From Cytobacillus gottheilii (GTDB taxonomy: Bacteria > Bacillota > Bacilli > Bacillales > Cytobacillaceae), in the NCBI RefSeq assembly GCF_900166665.1, contig NZ_LT800494.1, forward strand, positions 3,556,061 to 3,620,060: a stretch of DNA of 64,000 nucleotides, written 5' to 3'. The notes beneath the pieces were generated by a model. That model was not told where the DNA came from and made no database searches. It worked only from the letters and a program-made list of their open reading frames with translations. Both the position numbers and the translations under genes were made by a program. Positions 1-10,222 of the stretch are shown here, one piece after another (position 1 is the stretch's first letter; every line of letters begins with the position of its first letter).

Positions 1-1092
1 ATACGTCTGATCAGCGAACGAATCGGAGCCGTTTTCTTTAAAACCGCCTCCCTTCTTCGCAAAGTTCCAAATGAAACATTGCTTGAAATGGGGTTTCCAG
101 CTGAAACCCTTTCCTATATTCGTTTGAAAACGATGCATTCTGAGAGCGTGATCGCCAGGCTAGATCTGATCCCCTCCTGCGACAGCTATAAATGCATTGA
201 GATTAATGCAGATACGCCTACTTTCATTAAAGAGCTCTTTTCGGTTAACGCTGAAATCTGCCGGGAGTTTGGGATGATCGATCCGAATGAAGGCATGGAA
301 GCAAAGTTAAGATCCGCCGTACAGGAAAGTATTAAACAAAGCTCGCAAAAGAAAAACCCTAATATCGTTTTCACGGCACATGAAGACAATATCGAGGATC
401 GGGAAACGGTTCTATATCTGCAAAAAGGGATAGATTCCAAGTTCACCCCTCTCCATAAGCTTCACATTGAAAAAGGTGTGGGTCTATTTGATGAGCAAGG
501 GAAAAAAATCGATATTCTCTATCGTCAGACGTTTCCGATTGAAAACCTGATTAAAGATGAGGATGACAAAGGAAATCTCATCGGTCTTTGGTTACTAGAC
601 CTGATTGAGGATGGAAAGCTTACTGTTATTAATCCTCCCTCCGCTTTTCTGCTGCAAAACAAAGCGGTTCAGGCCATTATTTGGGGTTTGCATGAAGAGC
701 ACCATTCTTTTTTTACAGAAGAAGAGCATAGCTGGATTGGAGAGTACTTCCTTCCAACTTACCTGGAAGCAGATTATTTCATCCAAAATGGAATTCCTTT
801 TGTGAAAAAGCCGATCTTTGGGCGTGAAGGCGATACGGTTGAGATTTTTAATCGTAGCGGAAAACTTGTTTTAGCCGATGCGCAAAGCTCTTATACCGAC
901 TATCTCCCCGTATACCAGCAATATATCGAGCATCCGTCCATGGATTTTCAGAGTGAAAAAGGCAAACAAAATGGCAAACTGCTTCTCGGCAGCTTTCTGC
1001 TAAATGGGAAGCCTGGAGCTATCGGTTATCGGATTGGCGAAACCATTACGAATAACCTTTCTTATTATCTTCCTGCGGGAATCAGGAGGTAG
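1..1092 (+). CDS. Glutathionylspermidine synthase family protein (5' end outside window)
   Basis: Open from base 1 with no stop, so the gene begins upstream of the window; the first in-frame TTG at 79 is not a convincing start. The visible 363 residues match the C-terminal ATP-grasp amide ligase half of the YgiC/YjfC family: an SCDSYKCIEINADTP stretch, a KKPIFGREGDTVEIF stretch, and a C-terminal segment ending in NNLSYYLPAGI. Family members join an amine to a peptide or acid with ATP; in bacilli without glutathionylspermidine the substrate is unknown. The stop is 3 bases before the K+ channel gene, so the two are co-transcribed. Function is by family only. Confidence 0.85.
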   Translation: MRLISERIGAVFFKTASLLRKVPNETLLEMGFPAETLSYIRLKTMHSESVIARLDLIPSCDSYKCIEINADTPTFIKELFSVNAEICREFGMIDPNEGMEAKLRSAVQESIKQSSQKKNPNIVFTAHEDNIEDRETVLYLQKGIDSKFTPLHKLHIEKGVGLFDEQGKKIDILYRQTFPIENLIKDEDDKGNLIGLWLLDLIEDGKLTVINPPSAFLLQNKAVQAIIWGLHEEHHSFFTEEEHSWIGEYFLPTYLEADYFIQNGIPFVKKPIFGREGDTVEIFNRSGKLVLADAQSSYTDYLPVYQQYIEHPSMDFQSEKGKQNGKLLLGSFLLNGKPGAIGYRIGETITNNLSYYLPAGIRR

Positions 1093-1095
1093 AGC

Positions 1096-2124
1096 ATGTA
1101 TATCTTACATAAAATCTTTTCGAAGCTAACAAAAATTAGATTGATTGATGCGGCTCTGCTGGCTGCTGCGATGATTTTTATCAGCAGCGTTACGATGAAG
1201 CTCGTGGAGCCTGAGACTTTTCCCCGCTATATCGATGCCCTATGGTGGACGATGACCACGCTCGTCACTGTTGGATATGGCGATTATTATCCAACAAGTG
1301 ATCTCGGCAGGGTTTTCACCATGCTGCTTGTTTATACTTTTGGCATCGGCGGAATGGGGATTATTATTGGAAAACTATTTGAAGGCTTCAGCACTTACCG
1401 TAAATGGAAGGAGGAAGGAAAATTGCAGTATTCCGGGAAAGATCATTATATTTTAATCGGCGGCACGAAAGAAAAGTTAGCTAATGTCATAGAGGAAATC
1501 ACCAGCAGCGGCCCGAAAAAGGAAATCGTCATCATTGACCATCTGGAACGCGCACCAATTGAAGGCGATCAGGTGCATTTTATCAGCGGCAATCCTGCTG
1601 AAGAAGAAGTTTTACTGAAAGCCAATATCCTTGAAGCGAAATCGGTTGCTATTTTCTCTGATGACCGAAACGATCAGGCAGAATACGCCGATGGCAAAAC
1701 CCTGCTCACTGCCTCTCGCGTCGAACATATTTCCAAAAAGTACGACCGCAATATCTATACCATCGTCGAAGTCAAAAAAGATAAACATATCGCCCTGTTC
1801 GAACATGCCAATGTCGATGAATTTATTCTTTCCAATGATTCCGTTTCCCGTCTCATGGCTCAAGCCTCCCTCCACCATGGTTCAAGCAAACTATTCAACC
1901 AGATGCTAAGTAACAAAGATGGCGAAAACCTCTATGCTATCTCCGTAAAGCCTCAATGGAAAACCTACCGTGATGCGGCTATGGAGCTTTTTGATATGGG
2001 AGCTGTACTGCTATCGGATGGAAACTCTCTAGATATTGCGCGGAGACATCAGGAATCTATTCCATGTGATGCGCAGCTGTTTATTTTGTGTGATGAGGAG
2101 ACTTATTGGAGGGTTGTGGGGTAG
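1096..2124 (+). CDS. Potassium channel protein with RCK/TrkA-N domain
   Basis: 342 residues. A first membrane helix (about 17-36), pore loop with the K+ selectivity filter TVGYGD at residues 58-63, second helix (about 70-90), then a cytosolic Rossmann RCK/TrkA-N domain (from about 110, 'YILIGG' nucleotide-binding start). This is the two-helix MthK/YugO architecture, giving a tetrameric ligand-gated K+ channel in the plasma membrane. AGGAGGT lies 5 bases before ATG 1096 and inside the end of the preceding gene. Pairing with a glutathionylspermidine-synthase-like gene suggests linked control of cation or polyamine balance (inference). Resemblance to YugO is architectural; orthology was not tested. 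Confidence 0.9.
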   Translation: MYILHKIFSKLTKIRLIDAALLAAAMIFISSVTMKLVEPETFPRYIDALWWTMTTLVTVGYGDYYPTSDLGRVFTMLLVYTFGIGGMGIIIGKLFEGFSTYRKWKEEGKLQYSGKDHYILIGGTKEKLANVIEEITSSGPKKEIVIIDHLERAPIEGDQVHFISGNPAEEEVLLKANILEAKSVAIFSDDRNDQAEYADGKTLLTASRVEHISKKYDRNIYTIVEVKKDKHIALFEHANVDEFILSNDSVSRLMAQASLHHGSSKLFNQMLSNKDGENLYAISVKPQWKTYRDAAMELFDMGAVLLSDGNSLDIARRHQESIPCDAQLFILCDEETYWRVVG

Positions 2125-2143
2125 GGCTTGCTTCTCACTTAAT

Positions 2144-2445
2144 TTAGAGCGTTTGAAATAAGCGGAGGGAGTTCAAGTTCCTATAATCCTCATCTGAAAT
2201 ACAGATATCACCAACTAACTCATTATTATCGTATTTAATAAATTCATAGAATTTCATAGTATCTTCTGGGAAAACAGTTTTTTCAAAATTCTTAAACCCT
2301 TCAAATGGCACTAATAATAAATTCGCTTTTATTAAATCCTCTTCGTATTCTTTTGGAGAAAATATTCTTTAGAATAAATATCATCAAAGGTCAAATTACC
2401 TTTAGGAATCTCTAAATTATTGATTTTTTCGCTTTCGTGGATCAT
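2144..2445 (-). pseudogene. Frameshifted small gene of unknown family
   Basis: Reading from ATG at 2445 the frame opens as M-I-H-E-S-E-K-I-N-N and closes near 2340. Moving one base near 2355 restores a protein-like reading (S-P-K-E-Y-E-E-D-L-I, then VPFEGFKNF and DDIYSKEYF-type segments) that ends at TAA 2144-2146. About 100 residues in all. The family was not recognised. A second broken reading frame ends 5 bases upstream, so the two look like the corpse of a two-gene unit. Confidence 0.45.
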
Positions 2446-2450
2446 TACAA

Positions 2451-2580
2451 TTAGCCCCCCTTTTGAATATGCTGACTGATAATTTCATTGGCTTTCTTTT
2501 GATCAACCTTAACCTCGAAAATTAAATGGATTGAACATTCTTAATATTAACAAAAACACTTTTCGGATTACGAAGAAATG
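2451..2580 (-). pseudogene. C-terminal fragment of a decayed gene
   Basis: Minus-strand reading gives FLRNPKSVFVNIKNVQSI, then after a one-base shift HLIFEVKVDQKKANEII and a stop at 2451-2453. The codon usage looks protein-like but no start and no domain can be named. It lies directly upstream of, and on the same strand as, the frameshifted frame at 2144-2445. Confidence 0.35.
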
Positions 2581-2612
2581 AAAAAGGTTTATTCGTCATA
2601 ATAAACCTTTTT
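2581..2612 (-). terminator. Hairpin terminator after the 44-residue ORF
   Basis: Perfect inverted repeat AAAAAGGTTTAT - 8 bases - ATAAACCTTTTT. It overlaps the stop codon of the 44-residue ORF (2589) and could end transcription of the island operon. The flanking A and T runs would let it work on either strand. Confidence 0.6.
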
Positions 2613-2723
2613 CATTTCGCCTTTTACAGCATTAATGCTTTTTCCAAGGTCATACGGCTGTGAATAATAGATTTTACCACATCCATTTTTGACAAATAAG
2701 ATACCGCCGTACTCACAGATCAT
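2589..2723 (-). CDS. Small hypothetical protein (44 aa)
   Basis: ATG at 2723 preceded by AAAAAGGAG at a good distance (8 bases), 44 codons, TAA at 2589. The protein begins MICEYGGILFVKNGCGK and ends GEMKKVYYDE; it is Gly/Tyr-rich with two Cys and has no membrane segment or named domain. It lies 32 bases downstream of the HEPN gene on the same strand and just before a terminator, so it could be the last gene of the restriction operon, or an independent small Bacillus gene. The ribosome binding site is the main reason to call it. Confidence 0.5.
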   Translation of the reverse strand: MICEYGGILFVKNGCGKIYYSQPYDLGKSINAVKGEMKKVYYDE

Positions 2724-2755
2724 TAAAAAACTCCTTTTTGGAATAAAGACGATTT

Positions 2756-3274
2756 TTAAGTCAGTTTTCTTTCTAGATAGTCAATTAGCCTTAATGCTTG
2801 TTTATATAAATCGTAAATTTCTTCGTTTGTCTGTTCTATAAAAAATGTGGCCATGTTTTTATGAACAAGCTGATTTCTTAAGTCTCCCAGCCTCATAAAG
2901 GCTTTGGCTGCAAACTCTAATTCCTGCTCTTTTATCTCCTCAATGGCTTGTTTTTTAAAGTCTTCACCAAACCAGCCCAAAAACCTATTTATATTATTTT
3001 TGTCCCAATCAAAAAGGCTATGATATTGCCTATCCAGAGCTTTTTTCTTTAGGAAAGACACAATTTCATTGCTATTATCGGTCTTTAAACCAAAAAAACG
3101 AATTAATAATTCAGTAACTTTTGTTTCGAAAAAACTTGCTGCAGAAACAAGAAGGATTTTCTTTAACTTATTATCCATATCCTGTTGAAAAGAAACCTCT
3201 TGTTTCTCAGCCAAATATTCAAGTAAATCTTTGTTTTCGTTGTAAACTCTATCAACAATCGTTTCTTCCATCAA
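2756..3274 (-). CDS. HEPN domain protein, MAE_28990/MAE_18760-like
   Basis: 172 residues, all-helical. The HEPN catalytic motif RX4H is visible as R133-N-Q-L-V-H138. The family contains metal-independent RNases used in toxin-antitoxin and abortive-infection systems, and this sub-type is known to sit beside DUF262 proteins. The ATG overlaps the stop of the DUF262 gene (ATGA, 3271-3274), so translation is coupled. Here it probably acts as an RNA-cleaving effector or as a partner of the DUF262 protein; that role is inferred from the motif and the neighbour. Confidence 0.75.
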   Translation of the reverse strand: MMEETIVDRVYNENKDLLEYLAEKQEVSFQQDMDNKLKKILLVSAASFFETKVTELLIRFFGLKTDNSNEIVSFLKKKALDRQYHSLFDWDKNNINRFLGWFGEDFKKQAIEEIKEQELEFAAKAFMRLGDLRNQLVHKNMATFFIEQTNEEIYDLYKQALRLIDYLERKLT

Positions 3275-4464
3275 TCATCACCCTCGGACGCTCCATTAAG
3301 AATCTCATCCGCAATGAATAATCTCTTTTTTACAATATCTCTTCTTGCAGTGCTATGATGTGTCGCATTAATAAATCCACGGTTTCTTTTTAATTTGTCG
3401 ACTAAATTAGGGTCAATTTCATGAGTAACTAATTCCTGATCAGCCAAATATGGTTCGCATGTTGCTTTAAAAATAGCCTCAAAAATGGAAATATTGAACT
3501 TACCAGTTCCTGTACTAAAGCATTCAGAATCCAAATCACTTGTTGCTTCTAGGAACGATACAAATAATTTCTCTAAATATTCTACCTTGGTAGCTGGGAA
3601 ATCCTTCGCATCTCGAGCAAAATTATTCAAAAACTTCACCATAGAAGGCTTATACTCGGAATTCTTTAAAAGTATCCCGAATCCACGAAGCAAAATTTCT
3701 ATGTCCCTCATTCGTAAATCTGGGTTCTCTTTCCCTATAATCTCCCGCCATCTTGGCAATAAATTAATTCTTCTAAGCATCATATCAAATTCTGAATAAT
3801 AAAGACTAGAACGAATTTCTTGTGTATTCAAGTTTTGGCTTCCAGAATTCAATCGATTGAAGATTTCAAATACGGAAGAATTGCTATCCTCTGGTTGATT
3901 TTGCTTGATAATAATATTCCTAATGGTACGAAGGTCAAATGTTGGTTTATCATCACCTAAAGTAGAATACGTTAACTTATTTAGCGGATGTTCCACGCCA
4001 GCTTTAACCTCAGGTAATTTTAATTTAAATGGAACAAAGTAATCACTGTCTTGTAACTTTTCATCAGGAATTTTTCCTTCTTTATCAAAGATTTCTCTTA
4101 ATTCAGCTCTCATGTCTTTTTTTGGAAATCTTCCTTTGATAAAGTAATAAATAGTCATTAATCTTTGTTGACCATCAATAACTAAGAACTTATTCCTTGA
4201 TTGCTCATACAAAAATATTTGTGGTACTGGGAGACCGATAATAATGGACTCAATAAGTTTCGAAGCTCGGTTCCGATCCCATACATAATTTCTTTGGAAA
4301 CCAGGGATTTTTACTACGCCTGATTCCATAAAATCAAAAAGTGTTTTTATATTAAAATCATTCGGAGAAGCTGTTATATCATATTCTGTAAACGAGTAAC
4401 CTTCTTCTTCATCTTCTTCTTGTTCTTCTTCTTCGATCCAATCATCGTTATGAACTTCTTCCAT
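3271..4464 (-). CDS. DUF262 domain protein (GmrS/ParB-like fold)
   Basis: 397 residues. A very acidic N-terminus (residues 8-21 almost all Asp/Glu) is followed by the DUF262 core: PGFQRNYVW at 54-62 and IDGQQR at 96-101, then FNRLNSGSQNLNTQEIR. DUF262 is a ParB/Srx-like NTP-binding domain seen in GmrSD, BrxU and SspE defence proteins. No HNH/DUF1524 nuclease domain is visible in the C-terminal part, unlike GmrD or SspE, so any nuclease must be supplied by the HEPN partner. A clean AGGAGGG ribosome site lies 22 bases after the endonuclease gene. Membership in the same operon is seen; joint function is inference. Confidence 0.8.
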   Translation of the reverse strand: MEEVHNDDWIEEEEQEEDEEEGYSFTEYDITASPNDFNIKTLFDFMESGVVKIPGFQRNYVWDRNRASKLIESIIIGLPVPQIFLYEQSRNKFLVIDGQQRLMTIYYFIKGRFPKKDMRAELREIFDKEGKIPDEKLQDSDYFVPFKLKLPEVKAGVEHPLNKLTYSTLGDDKPTFDLRTIRNIIIKQNQPEDSNSSVFEIFNRLNSGSQNLNTQEIRSSLYYSEFDMMLRRINLLPRWREIIGKENPDLRMRDIEILLRGFGILLKNSEYKPSMVKFLNNFARDAKDFPATKVEYLEKLFVSFLEATSDLDSECFSTGTGKFNISIFEAIFKATCEPYLADQELVTHEIDPNLVDKLKRNRGFINATHHSTARRDIVKKRLFIADEILNGASEGDD

Positions 4465-4486
4465 TTCTTATCCCTCCTATACTTTT

Positions 4487-5569
4487 TTAAGCTAATAGGC
4501 CAATTGTTGGTTCCATAAAGCTATCTAAAAATTCTTCCGTTACACCTCGGATTTTCCTACGCTGACACAATGAATACAACTCTTCTACCGCTGAGTATGG
4601 AAAATATCGAACATCTAATGTTTTAAACTGTGGTCTATTGGCTTCCCTTAAGACTTTACTACGATCTTCGTCAGGTGCCACGATGACGTATCTTGTAGGG
4701 AATGGTGGCAGTGCATCTTGGAGACCCTTCATTCTTGTAAGACCACTTGTTACGCCTGTGCTGTGTTCCACTTCCATTACTGCAGGCATTAACTTTCCAT
4801 TCTTAAACCAAATACAATCGATTAGTTTCGCTGCGTTATACGCTTCGTCAAATGCCGCAATCAATCTCTCATCCCTTAACGAATTCACTACTCCAGTCAT
4901 TTCTCCAACCCGTTGGTTGTTATACATAATTCCTTTATCATTTTGAGCTATCCATGTGCGAAAACCTAATTGTTTTCCGATCATAATTAACGCCACTTGA
5001 ATCTGCGAATGCCGTCTTTTGATTTCAATATCAATTTCATTATGTTCAAAACCTTCTGGCAGAACTAATGAATCGTAAAAAGCATCTGCATTCGGGATTT
5101 CTGAAATGACAATATCCGTTTCTGCCTTTACCATAACCCCTAGTTCATGAGGCCTTTTAGGACACCACATAAGATGCTTGTGTCCGTTCTTAATAGTGGA
5201 ATTTGACGTAGTGCTTTCAATTCGCCCAGGATAAACATAATAAAACTGTGGTGTATGAGCAATGAGTGCTTCCAAGACTGATCTTGTATTGTAACTACCA
5301 CCTAAAACACGATCGAAATTGATTGGCTGATTCGGGAAAAATGCATTGGCAACTCTCCATATCATTTCAGCAGAAATAGATTCTTCTTTGGCTGTAAAGG
5401 GAGTACCACCTTTACTTGGGTCATATCTTTTAATAACAATAGGACCTTCTGGCCTTGTAATACTTACTATTTTTATAAGACCTTTTGTTTTTGGATTAAT
5501 ATATGGAAATGTTCTATTTTTCGGTAATTGATCAATATAAGCAACAATGTCAGATGCGGTCAATCTCAT
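4487..5569 (-). CDS. Putative type II restriction endonuclease (PD-(D/E)XK-like, E-x-E)
   Basis: 360 residues. The N-terminal 240 residues match no domain I can name and may bind DNA. The C-terminal part carries a candidate active site, D251 (LIDCIW) followed by E266-V-E268 (VMEVEHS). This is the PD-(D/E)XK layout with the usual Lys replaced by Glu, as in BamHI (E-x-E). The start overlaps the methyltransferase gene by 20 bases. A cytosine methyltransferase directly upstream makes a cognate restriction enzyme the obvious reading. The recognition sequence cannot be told. A type IV or MRR-like enzyme is the alternative. Confidence 0.65.
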   Translation of the reverse strand: MRLTASDIVAYIDQLPKNRTFPYINPKTKGLIKIVSITRPEGPIVIKRYDPSKGGTPFTAKEESISAEMIWRVANAFFPNQPINFDRVLGGSYNTRSVLEALIAHTPQFYYVYPGRIESTTSNSTIKNGHKHLMWCPKRPHELGVMVKAETDIVISEIPNADAFYDSLVLPEGFEHNEIDIEIKRRHSQIQVALIMIGKQLGFRTWIAQNDKGIMYNNQRVGEMTGVVNSLRDERLIAAFDEAYNAAKLIDCIWFKNGKLMPAVMEVEHSTGVTSGLTRMKGLQDALPPFPTRYVIVAPDEDRSKVLREANRPQFKTLDVRYFPYSAVEELYSLCQRRKIRGVTEEFLDSFMEPTIGLLA

Positions 5570-6692
5570 CTCTCTGGTTTCCCCCTAAGAAATCCTTAAT
5601 CGTTTCTGCGATTCCCAAAGATGCTAAATATGGCACTCCGTTCCCGACGGTTTTAAATGCATCGGTCAACGTAATATCAGTCGGTATTTCAAAATTCTGC
5701 GGTAATGACTGTATAGCTAATGCTTCTGCTACTGTTAGCCTTCTGGCTTTATACGGATGTAAATGAACTTCGTTATTCCCGTAAGCGGCTGTAGGTGAAA
5801 ATCTCCAGCGATGAAGGCGTTTATATGATTTTTTCGAATCATCACCCTCTTCAATGACTAGGAATTTCGCTAAACCTGCTCTCGGTGTGAAAAATTGTTT
5901 ACTATTTGGATGATTTTCTACATCGTTCTTATGGAACCAATACTCGGCTGTTAGTTCCTCAATAATACCTTCTGGTTTTGGTGATACGGAGTCCTCTCCA
6001 AATTCATTCGTAGTAGGCCAAGGGATATTATTGATTGTTTTCATCGAATATTTCATATGATTCTCCCATGGAAAAAGCCCATTCGGAATAATCTCATCTG
6101 ACTCTTCGATGTTGTAACCTACTTCGCCTAATAACTCACGACGAAATCCCAGCAAGATAATCCGTTCTCTATGTTGAGCTGAACCATATTCTAGTGAATT
6201 GATTAATCTTTCCGTTGTTACATATCCATTTGCATGTAATTTGCTTTTCATTTCTTCAAAAAACTCACGATGTCTCTTGGTTCTCCATAATCCCTTTACA
6301 TTTTCAAATAGGAAAAAAGATGGCTTATGCTGACATATCAAATCCACATAGGTGCCTGATAGCTTTCCATTTTCTCCTTCACGTCCTTTGTTCTTACCCC
6401 CAACAGAAAAATCAGGACACGGAGGTCCACCGATAAATCCATAAAAGCTGTTTTCTGACTTGATTTCATTTATGTAAGCTCGTAACTGCTCTTGTTCCAG
6501 TAATTCCGTAATATCACCATTGTGATAGCCAAAACGCGGCTCTTCTATTTGAAGCATATTTCTAGAATGTTTGTATGACTTTAAAAAAGGTGTATGAATT
6601 TCGTTTACATACACTACATCAAACCCGCTATTTTCAAATCCTAAATCTAAAAAACCCGAACCTGAAAAGAACGAAAATATTGGGAAATTCAT
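5550..6692 (-). CDS. DNA (cytosine-5) methyltransferase, type II
   Basis: 380 residues with all core C5-MTase motifs in order: motif I FSFFSGSGFLDLGFE (7-20), motif IV PPCPDFS with catalytic C92, motif VI FENV (129-132), motif VIII QHRERI (173-178), a target-recognition region (about 190-330), motif IX RRLTVAEALAIQ and motif X GNGVPYLASL. It transfers a methyl group from AdoMet to cytosine C5. The gene is first in the minus-strand operon, with AAAGG 9 bases before ATG, and it overlaps the putative endonuclease. It would protect host DNA from that enzyme. No controller (C) gene is visible. Confidence 0.93.
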   Translation of the reverse strand: MNFPIFSFFSGSGFLDLGFENSGFDVVYVNEIHTPFLKSYKHSRNMLQIEEPRFGYHNGDITELLEQEQLRAYINEIKSENSFYGFIGGPPCPDFSVGGKNKGREGENGKLSGTYVDLICQHKPSFFLFENVKGLWRTKRHREFFEEMKSKLHANGYVTTERLINSLEYGSAQHRERIILLGFRRELLGEVGYNIEESDEIIPNGLFPWENHMKYSMKTINNIPWPTTNEFGEDSVSPKPEGIIEELTAEYWFHKNDVENHPNSKQFFTPRAGLAKFLVIEEGDDSKKSYKRLHRWRFSPTAAYGNNEVHLHPYKARRLTVAEALAIQSLPQNFEIPTDITLTDAFKTVGNGVPYLASLGIAETIKDFLGGNQRDEIDRI

Positions 6693-6824
6693 TTTATTTG
6701 CAACCTTTCTGTGTCCAAGAAGTATGTTTTTTTGCTATCTCGAATTATATCATATTAATATATTCTTTTTACGCAAAACAAATCAGGCATTGCCTGTTTT
6801 GTTTTCTTACTACTTGATTTCCTT

Positions 6825-6905
6825 TTAATTAACTACCTTCACTCCGACTACACTGTCAAACGCCACCCGCTCAAATTCACCAGGCTTTACAATAGGATCC
6901 ACCTA
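6825..6905 (-). pseudogene. C-terminal fragment of an unidentified gene
   Basis: Minus-strand frame VDPIVKPGEFERVAFDSVV then GVKVVN and TAA at 6825-6827. It reads like a genuine protein tail but has no start. It is joined to the transposase remnant upstream and may be host sequence stranded by an insertion. Confidence 0.3.
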
Positions 6906-6959
6906 ATGTACTCAACCATTGATGTCATGAGTGAATTCATCAACCCATATCATCAGCTT

Positions 6960-7081
6960 TACTAATAGAGCATATTCAATCGAGTAAATTATACGCAGGT
7001 CGAATGGTTTTTAGGCACCAGTTGATCTAACGCAACCATTTCAAGCTGATCACGTTGGATCGAATTATGTTTGGAAAGCAT
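6960..7081 (-). mobile_element. IS1182-family transposase remnant
   Basis: ATG at 7081 opens MLSKHNSIQRDQLEMVALDQ, continuing L-V-P-K-N-H, the characteristic N-terminus of IS1182-family transposases in Bacillaceae. The frame then hits a stop and several more. Only about 120 bases are recognisable; the rest of the element is gone. It marks the right boundary of the restriction island and suggests past transposon activity there. Confidence 0.6.
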
Positions 7082-7127
7082 CTTCATCACCTCTAACCTT
7101 ATTCTTCTTTTATTTTTAAACAAAAAA

Positions 7128-7192
7128 GACTGTAGGCAAACTCGATTTTCATCGAGTTTGCCTACAGTCTGAAGCCTGCTAAAAAGCAGGCT
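7128..7192 (-). terminator. Two successive hairpins, terminator of the 7.2-kb gene
   Basis: Hairpin 1 pairs AGCCTGCT (7173-7180) with AGCAGGCT (7185-7192). Hairpin 2 is a perfect 19-bp stem (7128-7146 with 7151-7169, loop 4), followed on the minus strand by seven bases of mostly T. They lie just past the stop codon at 7201. The long stem may originally have belonged to the end of the neighbouring IS1182 element. Confidence 0.7.
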
Positions 7193-7200
7193 TTTCTGTA

Positions 7201-7755
7201 TTAATGATTTTCCCTAATGGCTGTTTCTTCCAAGTCTAAATTCGCTCGAACTTTAGATATTGTCATTTCATACTCCTTTTTGTTACTTTCACCTAAACCT
7301 TTTGTGAATTCGCTATCGTCCATTAAATCAAGTAAACTTTTCATAACCTTGATCCTGGAAAGTGAAATTCGCTTTAAAGTTGGTATAGCAGCTATCCCTT
7401 TTAAACGCTCCAATTTTTCAAGGTCCACTTTGATTAATTCCAAATTTCTTTTAAAGTTTACATCTTTATTCAATGAGCTGTCGTTAGAAATCTCATCTAA
7501 GATTTCAGCTATAACCACTTTGTTTTGAGAAGTAAGATCAAAATTGAATTCTCCTTTACTCTTACTATCTTCCATACCTTCATAAATTCTTCCAATGTCT
7601 GACAATAGAAAATAATACTTTCTAAGTTTTCTACGTTGCACTAAATTCCAAACTTTTTTTATTTCACTTTTTGAGTCGAATAGAAATTGAGCAAGGGAAG
7701 CTAATAAATTTCCGCCACCGTTTCCACCATTTTCATTTTTATTTTCCTCTGTCAC
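7201..7755 (-). CDS. Hypothetical protein, helical, Gly/Asn-rich N-terminus
   Basis: 184 residues, GTG start at 7755 with GATAGGAGAGGT just upstream. Residues 2-16 are Asn/Gly/Glu-rich and low complexity. The remainder is predicted helical and charged (segments VQRRKLRKYYFLLSDIG and NLELIKVDLEKLERLKG). There is no signal peptide or membrane helix and no family was recognised. It is a single-gene unit with its own terminator, next to the restriction island and IS remnant, so it may be accessory DNA. Confidence 0.55.
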   Translation of the reverse strand: MTEENKNENGGNGGGNLLASLAQFLFDSKSEIKKVWNLVQRRKLRKYYFLLSDIGRIYEGMEDSKSKGEFNFDLTSQNKVVIAEILDEISNDSSLNKDVNFKRNLELIKVDLEKLERLKGIAAIPTLKRISLSRIKVMKSLLDLMDDSEFTKGLGESNKKEYEMTISKVRANLDLEETAIRENH

Positions 7756-8077
7756 ACTACCTCTCCTATCAACTGTAATAAAATATATTTTATTCCATAA
7801 TTACCCACTTAAGCAAGAACTTTGCTCATCACTAAACAGCAGAAGGAATCCTAGCAATTCTTATTTATACAGAAATGTACTCCTTTACAGTCACATTTAT
7901 TGTCACTCTTCACTTGAAAGTCACTACAAAGTCACACTTTTTTAATACAATACGGTAAGATACGGTATTTTTTTACTATCTTAAAATGCTTTGAATCTTT
8001 GATCTATCAATGATTTTAAACTATTTATGGTTCTTTACCTATATGTTTATAAATAGTCATAAGGTGAAGTTTTCTCC
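7756..8077. other. Intergenic region without a convincing gene
   Basis: A/T-rich. The only structure seen is four GTCAC boxes (7889-7935: AGTCAC, TGTCAC, AGTCAC, AGTCAC) with 12, 18 and 11 base steps and a duplicated ATACGGTA (about 7949-7967). Spacing is irregular and no replication gene is near, so iterons are not claimed. Confidence 0.3.
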
Positions 8078-8260
8078 ATGAGTTACACCGTATACCAAAA
8101 AGAACATCGAAAGGAAGACAAAGAAGCCACCACCCAGCAGATGAAATTGGAACTTGAACTTGATGGTGCAGTTGTGGCCATTGTAAAACCAGTGGGGATA
8201 AGTACTAGCTCGATGGCAAAATATAAGAAAAAAGAAAACAGTATCCAATTTTTTGGATAA
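8078..8260 (+). CDS. Doubtful small ORF (60 aa)
   Basis: ATG 8078, no good ribosome site (TTTTCTCC precedes). The protein is Lys/Glu-rich at both ends with a short hydrophobic centre (GAVVAIVKPVGIS). A second open stretch in another frame (about 8277-8412, containing DFLAQKLENEMVKKY and NINQYQRALVDIF) follows without a start codon. Together they may be the remains of one longer plus-strand gene. No family recognised. Confidence 0.25.
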   Translation: MSYTVYQKEHRKEDKEATTQQMKLELELDGAVVAIVKPVGISTSSMAKYKKKENSIQFFG

Positions 8261-8375
8261 CGGAGATTAATTACACCCCCTTGACTTTTTGGCTCAGAAA
8301 CTAGAAAATGAAATGGTAAAAAAATACACAAAAAGTAATATAAATCAATATCAACGTGCACTTGTGGATATTTTT

Positions 8376-8514
8376 GCAATGCTAGTGGAGATTTTCCAGT
8401 TAAACACAGTATAACCAGTCATTTTCACGAATTTTGAGGGAATAGCCGGAATTCCCCCTCAATTTTAGCTAATTTGAGTGAAATTTCATGAATAAGAGTA
8501 ATTTCTCCGCTTAT
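8376..8514. repeat. AATAAGCGGAG-family repeat, left end degenerate
   Basis: Shares with 9841-10027 the segments GTCATTTTCACGAATTTTGA and TGAATAAGAGTAATTTCTCC and the right terminus CTCCGCTTATT. The left terminus has decayed to AGTGGAGATTTTCC. A GGGGGGACAGGTTCCT box follows at about 8526-8541. Confidence 0.7.
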
Positions 8515-8601
8515 TATTTTGGGTTGGGGGGACAGGTTCCTTACCCAAATAGCCATGCTTCCTTCTGGTACGAACTTTGCTCATATGTAAAGAAAGGCAG
8601 C

Positions 8602-8970
8602 TCACTGCTGCTCTTTATTTTTGAGACTTCTCGCTAACCATATAGCATACAATTGAGGAATCAAATTCAACAAACTAACCAGAATCAATAAGTCATTTGG
8701 AGCAAGCGGCTTAAAATAACCCTCCCACCGGTTGTTTCCTTCCATATCACTTATGTAAATAAATGAAATGATAGCTGATAATATATTTCCTAATACAAGA
8801 AAAAACAAATTATTGGTTCGTTTGCTGAAGAATGCCAGAAGTGAGGTCACTATAATCATAAATAAATAACCGAGCATTGATCTGTTATCATAATCCTGAT
8901 ACATAGAAAAATAGACATATGGAAAACAAAATAGAATGAGTATTAGAATACCACTTTGAAATTTCTTCAT
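8602..8970 (-). CDS. Small integral membrane protein, unknown
   Basis: 122 residues with four hydrophobic segments (about 5-22, 33-49, 55-74, 92-112) joined by short loops and a basic C-terminus (LARSLKNKEQQ). A GAGGAGTAATAAA ribosome site precedes ATG 8970. A hairpin GCAGC-TCACT-GCTGC (8597-8611) overlaps the stop codon and forms the terminator. Family not recognised; probably a plasma-membrane protein without a catalytic motif. Confidence 0.6.
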   Translation of the reverse strand: MKKFQSGILILILFCFPYVYFSMYQDYDNRSMLGYLFMIIVTSLLAFFSKRTNNLFFLVLGNILSAIISFIYISDMEGNNRWEGYFKPLAPNDLLILVSLLNLIPQLYAIWLARSLKNKEQQ

Positions 8971-9069
8971 TTTATTACTCCTCTTTTTATAACAGTGTAA
9001 TTTTACACTAATTATAACATAAAGGGTATTTTTGATAATAGCTATTTTCCTACATTTTTTATGTTCTGC

Positions 9070-9732
9070 TTAGTTTATATTTTCTATGATTAAAGATACT
9101 TCTCCCAAATCTTCAATAATAAAGTCTGCTGCAGCATAGTTCCATTGAAAATCTTTTTTCCAGATTCCCTTCATTCCTATATTTCGGGCAGCTTTTATAT
9201 CATTGTCCGGATGGTCGCCCACAAATATACTTTCATTAGGTGTTACATTGAGTTGGTGCAATGCACGCTTAAATAGTTGAGGATCAGGTTTCTTTATCCC
9301 TTCCCATTCAGAAATTAGGATTGTATTAAAATAATCTCTTATGCCCAAAGCTTTGATGTTATCCATTTGAAATTGTCCTTTACCATTGGTAATCAAACCT
9401 AAAGCAAGGTTTTTAGACTTTAATTCTGCTAACATACGAATGAGATTCGGAAAAGCGATGCAATGATTTTTAAAATGAATAAGATAATCTTGAAGCAGTT
9501 CCTCCCAGGTTATATCAGTAATCTCAAATTCACTGACTACCTGCTGATATACTTTATCTTTCCAAACATATCCACGGTGGTCTAATTCAATAAACCTTCT
9601 TATATACCTCTCTTTTGGTATATGCCCCAGCCATTTATTTAAACGGTCGTATTGTATTTGTATAAACCATTTTACTGATTCATCTCTATTTAATAAGGTC
9701 CCGTCCAAATCGAATAAAACAGCTTTTATCAT
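9070..9732 (-). CDS. HAD-superfamily hydrolase (phosphatase-like)
   Basis: 220 residues from ATG 9732 (MIKAVLFDLDGTLL). An earlier in-frame ATG at 9762 would add ten residues, but AAAGGAG lies between the two, favouring 9732. All four HAD motifs are present: DLDGT near the N-terminus, the Thr of LITNGKG, the Lys of KKPDPQLF, and FVGDHPDNDIKAA with paired Asp. The cap domain lies between motifs I and II, as in the phosphoglycolate phosphatase/YsaA-like group. The substrate cannot be named. It is a single-gene unit. Confidence 0.85.
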   Translation of the reverse strand: MIKAVLFDLDGTLLNRDESVKWFIQIQYDRLNKWLGHIPKERYIRRFIELDHRGYVWKDKVYQQVVSEFEITDITWEELLQDYLIHFKNHCIAFPNLIRMLAELKSKNLALGLITNGKGQFQMDNIKALGIRDYFNTILISEWEGIKKPDPQLFKRALHQLNVTPNESIFVGDHPDNDIKAARNIGMKGIWKKDFQWNYAAADFIIEDLGEVSLIIENIN

Positions 9733-9840
9733 TTCTAGATCCACTCCTTTAAGCTGGTTCATAAATCTTCTCTATTTCTTTTTCATAATCCTTCTGTACC
9801 TATAAGGAGACATCCTTCTTTCTGAAAATAGGGCTTTTAA

Positions 9841-10027
9841 AATAAGCGGAGATTTTCCGGTTAAATGCAGAAATAAGCTTTTTTTGGAGTAAATAAGCGG
9901 AATTTTTCCGGTTAAACACCGTAAAACCCGTCATTTTCACGAATTTTGAGGGAATAGTCGGAAATTCTCCGTCTATTTGGGCTATTTTCAGTGGAATTTC
10001 ATGAATAAGAGTAATTTCTCCGCTTAT
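9841..10027. repeat. AATAAGCGGAG-family repeat, complete copy
   Basis: 187 bp from AATAAGCGGAG to CTCCGCTTATT, so the termini form an 11-bp perfect inverted repeat. An internal AATAAGCGGAATTTTTCCGG half-copy sits near 9893. No coding capacity; it is followed immediately by the 41-bp tandem array. Confidence 0.8.
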
Positions 10028-10030
10028 TTT

Positions 10031-10222
10031 GGGTTGAGAGGACAGGTTCCTTGACCCACTGGTCTTATTTTGGGTCTAGGGGACAGGTTCCTTGACCCAC
10101 TGGTCTTGTTTTAGGCCCGGGGGACAGGTTCCTTAACCCACTGGTCTTATTTTGGGTCGGGGGACAGGTTCCTTAACCCACTGGTCTTATTTTGGGTCGG
10201 GGGACAGGTTCCTTAACCCACC
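10031..10222. repeat. Five tandem 41-bp units with GGGACAGGTTCCTT boxes
   Basis: Units start near 10031, 10072, 10113, 10154 and 10194. Each contains GGGTC...GGGGACAGGTTCCTT(G/A)ACCC followed by ACTGGTCTTATTTT. GGGTC and GACCC are inverted, so each unit can fold. Units 4 and 5 are near identical, showing recent duplication. No coding capacity. Confidence 0.85.

Follow-up and report, generated by a model that had tools for sequence, protein, structure and literature searches.

Restriction-modification is usually understood as the work of a methylase and a DNA cutter. In the stretch of DNA analyzed here, 64,000 nucleotides of Cytobacillus gottheilii (assembly GCF_900166665.1, contig NZ_LT800494.1, positions 3,556,061 to 3,620,060; hereafter the window), a methylase gene and a restriction endonuclease gene are followed directly by a DUF262 gene and a gene for a predicted HEPN ribonuclease (RNase). 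What is an RNA cutter doing behind a DNA cutter, and does one methylase serve both? The explanation that we favor, with its chances about evenly balanced, is that a type II restriction system has been joined by a mobile DUF262-HEPN effector resembling the PD-T4-2 system, with the methylase serving as self-protection for both effectors.

The operon and its two modules

The original prediction described five tightly packed minus-strand frames, comprising a C5-methylase, an endonuclease, DUF262 and HEPN genes, and a 44-codon open reading frame (ORF). All five frames, from 2589..2723 up to 5550..6692, were recovered, and Pfam and PADLOC searches bear out the four gene assignments. The first gene encodes a C5 cytosine DNA methyltransferase of 380 amino acids (5550..6692, minus strand), which matches PF00145 at 3.6e-50 and the PADLOC model MTase_II PDLC03355 with 541.6 bits. 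It is followed by the gene for a type II restriction endonuclease of 360 amino acids (4487..5569, minus strand), for which a Pfam search gave no family; this protein matches the PADLOC model REase_II PDLC03534 with 442.6 bits, and an alignment of 28 sequences leaves D251, E266, and E268 invariant, making D251...E266-x-E268 the candidate active site, a layout that presumably resembles that of BamHI. With a PF00145-family C5 methylase gene and a partner restriction endonuclease (PDLC03534) side by side, the two genes appear, from their sequences, to form an intact restriction-modification system of type II with C5 methylation.

The third gene encodes a DUF262/GmrS-like protein of 397 amino acids (3271..4464, minus strand), which matches PF03235 (GmrSD_N) at 5.6e-32, carries a DGQQR motif that is invariant in 5 aligned sequences, and matches the solved structure 7p9k, a DUF262 protein, at 1.6e-7; the structure search gave nothing useful for the endonuclease or the HEPN protein. 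The fourth gene encodes a predicted endoribonuclease of the HEPN_RiboL-PSP family (PF18735, 2.3e-15) and occupies 2756..3271 of the minus strand if it starts at ATG (171 amino acids) or extends to 3274 if it starts at TTG (172 amino acids). Among 17 aligned sequences, R132 and H137, which form an R-x4-H RNase dyad, are the sole fully invariant columns. Because catalytic or diagnostic motifs have been kept in the endonuclease, HEPN, and DUF262 proteins, the genes look maintained.

In the order of transcription, the frames are separated by a 20-base overlap, a 22-base gap, the DUF262/HEPN overlap, and a 32-base gap. This is the spacing originally predicted except for the DUF262/HEPN junction, which had been given as ATGA; the sequence reads TGATG, with a 1-base overlap, for the ATG start at 3271 or TTGA, with a 4-base overlap, for the TTG start at 3274. 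Judged by eye, the operon genes have plausible ribosome-binding sites or translational coupling. That the four minus-strand genes are a real composite operon with a compact layout is well supported, and they are presumably transcribed as a single unit.

The DUF262/HEPN half has a counterpart with a reported function. PD-T4-2, which is listed as a DUF262 plus HEPN system (PMC10952713), has been reported to protect Escherichia coli against T4, and its deletion to raise T4 plating (PMC9519451). As in PD-T4-2, the DUF262 gene of the window is followed by an adjacent PF18735 HEPN gene, and its product matches the PD-T4-2_A model with 128.6 bits, although NsnA scores higher; the difference is that the window pair sits behind a type II restriction system. 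The window HEPN protein gave no match with the PD-T4-2_B model at E (expectation) values of 0.1 or 0.01, and two of its relatives, at loci L204 and L170, match that model with 26 and 18.5 bits. NsnA, which we take to be a component of Menshen (NsnABC), is the top PADLOC match of the window DUF262 protein at 182.6 bits, but a relative partnered with DUF3696 (L163) scores 329 bits, and a DUF3696 partner is absent in the window. The partners of NsnA in Menshen are, we assume, a DUF3696/ATPase protein and a third component; beside the window DUF262 gene neither was found, the next gene being HEPN.

A DUF262 protein bearing DGQQR, the proposed nucleoside triphosphate (NTP)-binding motif of GmrS, also recurs in GmrSD, BrxU, and SspE, which are described as combining DUF262 with a DUF1524 nuclease and as responding to DNA modification (PMC10952713). 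In the window, however, the partner is a predicted HEPN RNase. A Pfam scan of the DUF262 protein up to E = 1 gave no family besides PF03235, and DUF1524 (GmrD) was not found in the five scanned operon proteins; with GmrSD_N as the only GmrSD domain among them, the operon is not classed with GmrSD.

A suicidal back-up role for restriction-linked HEPN RNases was proposed in the 2013 HEPN survey of Anantharaman et al., whose table places a RiboL-PSP HEPN in an operon with ParB and a MAE_28990 HEPN in an operon with ParB nuclease and DNA methylase genes; the accessible parts of that survey show no RiboL-PSP HEPN/DUF262 pair within an operon that holds a whole type II C5 system (PMC3710099). In 2026, HEPN and other RNases were described as back-up effectors of BREX-type loci (PMC12839542). 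Since HEPN RNases as a back-up to restriction have already been published, the operon is a variant of a published idea. In the literature searched, which covered few subscription journals, an operon that joins a type II methylase and endonuclease to DUF262 and HEPN was not found. BsuMI of Bacillus subtilis was considered as a precedent; none of the texts consulted calls its restriction genes DUF262 or HEPN, and it was dropped.

DUF262/HEPN pairs and methylases at other loci

Among 51 non-redundant DUF262/HEPN loci, the near end of a methylase gene lies within 3 kb upstream in 11, versus none of 39 loci with DUF262 and without HEPN (Fisher p = 0.002), and 10 of these 11 methylases are co-directional with the pair. 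Of the 14 methylases that the scan found anywhere in the 51 loci, 11 fall within the 3-kb upstream stretch, which makes up about one fifth of the sequence (binomial p = 5e-6). When the eight loci with less than 1.5 kb of upstream sequence are dropped, the count is 10 of 43; when an N6 methylase lying second upstream of the pair (L164) and another lying downstream (L141) are added, it is 13 of 51. The motif scan for N4/N6 methylases was crude and missed the one at L164. These figures suggest that the link between methylases and DUF262/HEPN pairs is not accidental.

PF18735 passes its cut-off in 16 of 398 genomes of the class, and the window DUF262 protein finds matches at E 1e-20 in 2 of the 398, the window's own genome being included in both counts. 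Its relatives occur in 124 plasmid records, 25 phage records, and at least 133 stretches of viral contigs, from which 14 plasmid records (picked for organism diversity), 2 phage records, and 80 viral stretches were examined, together with 20 regions, mostly the stronger ones, from each of two lists of 31 and 38 PF18735 matches. Filtering at 85% identity left 49 of the resulting 60 pairs; the remaining two loci are L199, whose HEPN was found by tblastn, and L200, whose contig stops just past DUF262 with the HEPN out of view. Left out were L171 (HEPN by Pfam), L165, L185, and L218, in which HEPN detection was not passed or the contig ended. In four further relatives (L163, L166, L168, and L169), the partner is DUF3696, and the stretches examined contain no annotated methylase. 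The controls were taken from viral contigs, with the same 85% identity filter; contig L226, which has a DUF262/HEPN pair, supplied one of them through a second DUF262 gene.

The copies on plasmids and in viral contigs, the overlapping two-gene layout, and the HEPN toxin fold would also fit an addiction module, in which DUF262 is the antitoxin and HEPN the toxin and the pair stabilizes the island with no role against phage. We regard this as very improbable: a similar two-gene system is reported to show a direct anti-phage phenotype (PMC9519451), and DUF262 has the conserved DGQQR motif, unlike the usual antitoxins.

The methylases found with the pairs are of several kinds. In L182, a C5 methylase on the opposite strand accompanies a NaeI-type endonuclease and Vsr, and the HEPN protein is 42.6% identical to that of the window. 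On a Rhodococcus plasmid (L103), a C5 methylase is accompanied by genes for a NaeI-type endonuclease and for Vsr that lie on the other strand, and a Phaeobacter plasmid (L167) has a C5 methylase and an MvaI/BcnI-type endonuclease, the latter separated from DUF262 by two genes. L204 repeats the four-gene layout of the window with unrelated first genes: a double C5 methylase, a 412-residue protein, DUF262, and HEPN. The 412-residue protein (4586-5824 of that locus) gave no Pfam family at E 0.05 and a marginal 16-bit match with a restriction enzyme model; it is possibly an undescribed endonuclease. In L140, L142, and L178/L179, an N4/N6-type methylase (assigned by Pfam in L140 and L179 and by likeness to those in L142 and L178) overlaps or abuts DUF262, and in L142 (5286-14655) the methylase, DUF262, and HEPN genes are followed directly by type I hsdR, hsdM, and hsdS.

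At other loci, a C5 methylase stands immediately before the pair and no endonuclease was recognized: an Akkermansia phage (L170, with viral contigs L213 and L214), L152, L192, and L199, the upstream side of which ends at the contig end. Among ten neighboring proteins (nine from L170/L213/L214, L152, and L192 and one from L140), PADLOC restriction-enzyme models gave no match at E 0.01; other neighbors were judged by eye. In the Akkermansia phage, the C5 methylase, DUF262, and HEPN genes are tightly packed with repressor-like genes on either side, and their products are 47%, 46%, and 43% identical, respectively, to those of the window. In L192 (5077-8144), a helix-turn-helix gene overlaps the start of a C5 methylase gene, which is followed in a row by DUF262 and a HEPN that fits the MAE_28990 family better. 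The helix-turn-helix gene presumably resembles the controller genes that precede methylases in some type II systems.

Because pairs recur directly behind several classes of methylase, sometimes without a recognized endonuclease, the modification state of DNA is the most likely trigger. These loci also bear on the idea of a PrrC-like guardian, in which DUF262-HEPN would watch the restriction enzyme and be released when a phage inhibitor disables restriction. The same was proposed for restriction-linked HEPN genes in the 2013 survey, by analogy with PrrC (PMC3710099). However, some pair loci have no recognized endonuclease to watch, and since the partners of the pairs are unrelated (NaeI type, MvaI/BcnI type, and N4/N6 as well as C5 methylases), a conserved protein-protein watch is unlikely. 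In addition, the PrrC-type guardian is a HEPN fused to an ABC ATPase within a type I system, whereas the window has a stand-alone HEPN and a type II system. We regard a guardian of this kind as improbable, if less so than an addiction module.

In a further, bolder reading, the DUF262-HEPN pair may be a methylation-gated effector that can stand in for a restriction enzyme: a methylase would mark self DNA, DUF262 would read an unmarked site, and the outcome would be RNA cleavage and cell arrest in place of a DNA cut. The three-gene methylase-DUF262-HEPN loci would then represent this effector in pure form, and the operon of the window would be a hybrid whose single methylase shields against a DNA cutter and an RNA cutter. 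This is somewhat doubtful on present evidence.

The principal competitor of a coupled system is that two independent defenses lie under one promoter, brought together by the traffic of defense islands, with no signaling between them; each would cover different phages, the pair acting, for example, on modified-cytosine phages that escape restriction. Although we put this at less than an even prospect, it is nearly as likely as the coupled reading, and several results weigh in its favor or against the coupling. As originally noted, type II restriction-modification loci and DUF262/HEPN pairs are both known apart, and for the most part they occur so. An alignment of four endonucleases, used as a pattern to scan the genomes of 84,980 species, gave 67 loci, spanning Bacillota, Bacteroidota, Cyanobacteria, Proteobacteria, and one archaeon, among others. 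A homologous methylase, matched over 300 residues or more, precedes the endonuclease in the same orientation in 56 of them, its end no more than 300 bp away; 64 have at least some methylase sequence, and the contigs of the remaining three start at or inside the endonuclease. Like the window, these PDLC03355/PDLC03534 systems have the methylase and then directly the endonuclease, but unlike it, no downstream DUF262/HEPN pair was detected in any of the 67 by tblastn with the window proteins or by DUF262 and HEPN profiles (downstream sequence was at least 2 kb in 57 and at least 5 kb in 48, ten being too short). The notion of a fixed four-gene combination was thus overstated. A Vsr-like repair gene lies near the endonuclease in 10 of the 67. 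The one DUF262 gene found near an endonuclease (L054, the same locus as L029) was rejected as a linked pair; it is convergent and 26% identical and adjoins a SIR2-like gene that is below its Pfam cut-off.

Conversely, no methylase was detected in 38 of the 51 DUF262/HEPN loci, so that the pair can probably work alone. The four-gene operon is present in one of 36 genomes of the genus, the window's own, and the 35 congeners are without it (five other matches span just 41-68 query bases). Among viral loci alone, the methylase association falls to 3 of 23 versus 0 of 39 (p = 0.047); the controls are all viral, and their DUF262 proteins are more distant. The p-values flatter the association, as independence does not hold for the linked loci: L140, L142, and L178/L179 make up one clade and L152 and L192 another. 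Finally, defense genes cluster in islands, which by itself raises adjacency.

Of 52 rows in a DUF262 tree, 16 form a clade (support 100) that includes the window; five of the 16 (the window, L182, L199, L204, and L214) have a C5 methylase, and in eleven none was seen, the flanks being short in two of the eleven. Over the whole tree, the C5 label requires 7 changes, at least 5 of them forced by well-supported branches; the association was therefore gained or lost repeatedly, which we count in favor of the coupling. No methylase was found in the 16.6 kb examined for the closest DUF262/HEPN relative, which is on an Exiguobacterium plasmid, and L043, a near relative of the methylase/endonuclease module, has no DUF262/HEPN pair in 6.4 kb downstream; the four-gene operon thus looks recently joined. 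L089, another near relative, says little because it has just 1.4 kb downstream.

What random clustering does not lead one to expect is that 10 of 11 upstream methylases are co-directional or that a methylase stands directly before the pair where no endonuclease is recognized. The original prediction had held that the two pairs should be found adjacent elsewhere if they were more than chance neighbors. That exact neighborhood did not turn up a second time, but other methylases and unrelated type II endonucleases do repeatedly have a DUF262/HEPN pair as their neighbor. Since pairs recur by other methylases and a 47% identical relative of the window methylase precedes the Akkermansia phage pair, placement by pure chance is disfavored.

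The island, its flanks, and the 3' end of the operon

The operon was predicted to lie on a transferred island, and comparison with a near-identical congener (L282) provides the empty site. Window positions 1-2130 and 8392-10059 align to the congener, in which about 104 bp replaces about 6.26 kb of the window, so that the island carrying the operon extends over 2131..8391. The proteins on its two borders share 98 and 99% identity with those of the nearest congener. The content of guanine plus cytosine (GC) drops from about 0.44 to 0.29-0.40 over 2.1-9.7 kb; because low GC continues beyond the right edge of the island into sequence shared with the congener, GC alone is no boundary marker. Beside the operon, an insertion-sequence transposase remnant (6989..7123, minus strand), named IS1182 in the original prediction, has matches in 20 of 36 genus genomes (its own included), several with many copies, and gave no Pfam match at E 0.01.

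Between this remnant and an ORF at 7201-7755 that has no family match, positions 7127-7194 hold two hairpins, one on the minus strand, an inverted repeat of 20 pairs that resembles a terminator, and one on the plus strand. A repeat with units of the AATAAGCGGA type, dispersed and intergenic, occurs at 2150-2170 and 9837-10220 of the window, near both ends of the region, and at 3689-3910 and 5252-5423 of L282, where it flanks the insertion site on both sides; it may have served in the insertion of the island. The same genome has a second defense-like island about 11.5-21.6 kb before the window (in L280, a stretch whose end lies about 6.6 kb short of the window start). Four of its frames match C5 methylases, and judged by eye it also has a Vsr-like gene and large proteins of island type.

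At the 3' end of the operon, the fifth frame (2589..2723, minus strand) had been counted as a component. It has a strong ribosome-binding site. Matches occur in 5 of the 80 other family genomes searched, and none turned up in collections of plasmids and phages. Where their frame is intact, the relatives (L287-L291) are proteins of 62-70 amino acids with zinc-ribbon-like cysteine pairs, one of which (L288) immediately follows a C5 methylase and has a Vsr gene nearby. In four of the five alignments (L287 and L289-L291), the window copy is without 23-25 middle residues, including one cysteine pair. A role as a new regulator was rejected because of these missing residues and the lack of plasmid or phage matches, and the ORF is best read, from the alignments, as an internally shortened remnant of a zinc-ribbon-like protein.

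The hairpin predicted to end the operon does exist at 2575..2618 (minus strand) as an AU-rich stem of 19 pairs; the fold of 2560-2640 has -26.8 kcal/mol and z = -6.3, and none of 200 shuffles was equally stable. However, it overlaps the 3' end of the 44-codon ORF, and a consensus terminator scan did not report it, leaving it a possible terminator. An Rfam search of 2000-8000 gave no match.

A possible coupling through DNA modification

In the favored model, of a restriction system joined by a PD-T4-2-like effector, the operon would act against phage in two layers. In the first, the methylase would mark host sites and the endonuclease would cut unmarked DNA. In the second, DUF262 would be an NTP-using sensor of the state of the DNA that normally keeps the HEPN RNase inactive. 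An infection that escapes restriction, or wrongly modified DNA, would release the RNase, RNA would be cut, and the cell would stop. With the methylase present upstream, methylation may be part of the signal by which DUF262 licenses HEPN. The RNase add-on would be an abortive module whose trigger is probably tied to the state of DNA modification. Both mechanisms offered in the original prediction, gating by the methylation mark and a suicidal back-up for failed restriction, may apply.

The combination is modular, not fixed. If the two modules are merely neighbors, the case still measures the rate at which DUF262/HEPN pairs and methylases are joined in the present sample. The three-gene methylase-DUF262-HEPN loci, one of them phage-borne, make the methylation-gated reading directly testable. 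If it is true that such pairs read methylation and cut RNA, restriction and abortive infection would be two outputs of one self-mark, and some methylases now filed as orphans would be antidotes to an RNase effector.

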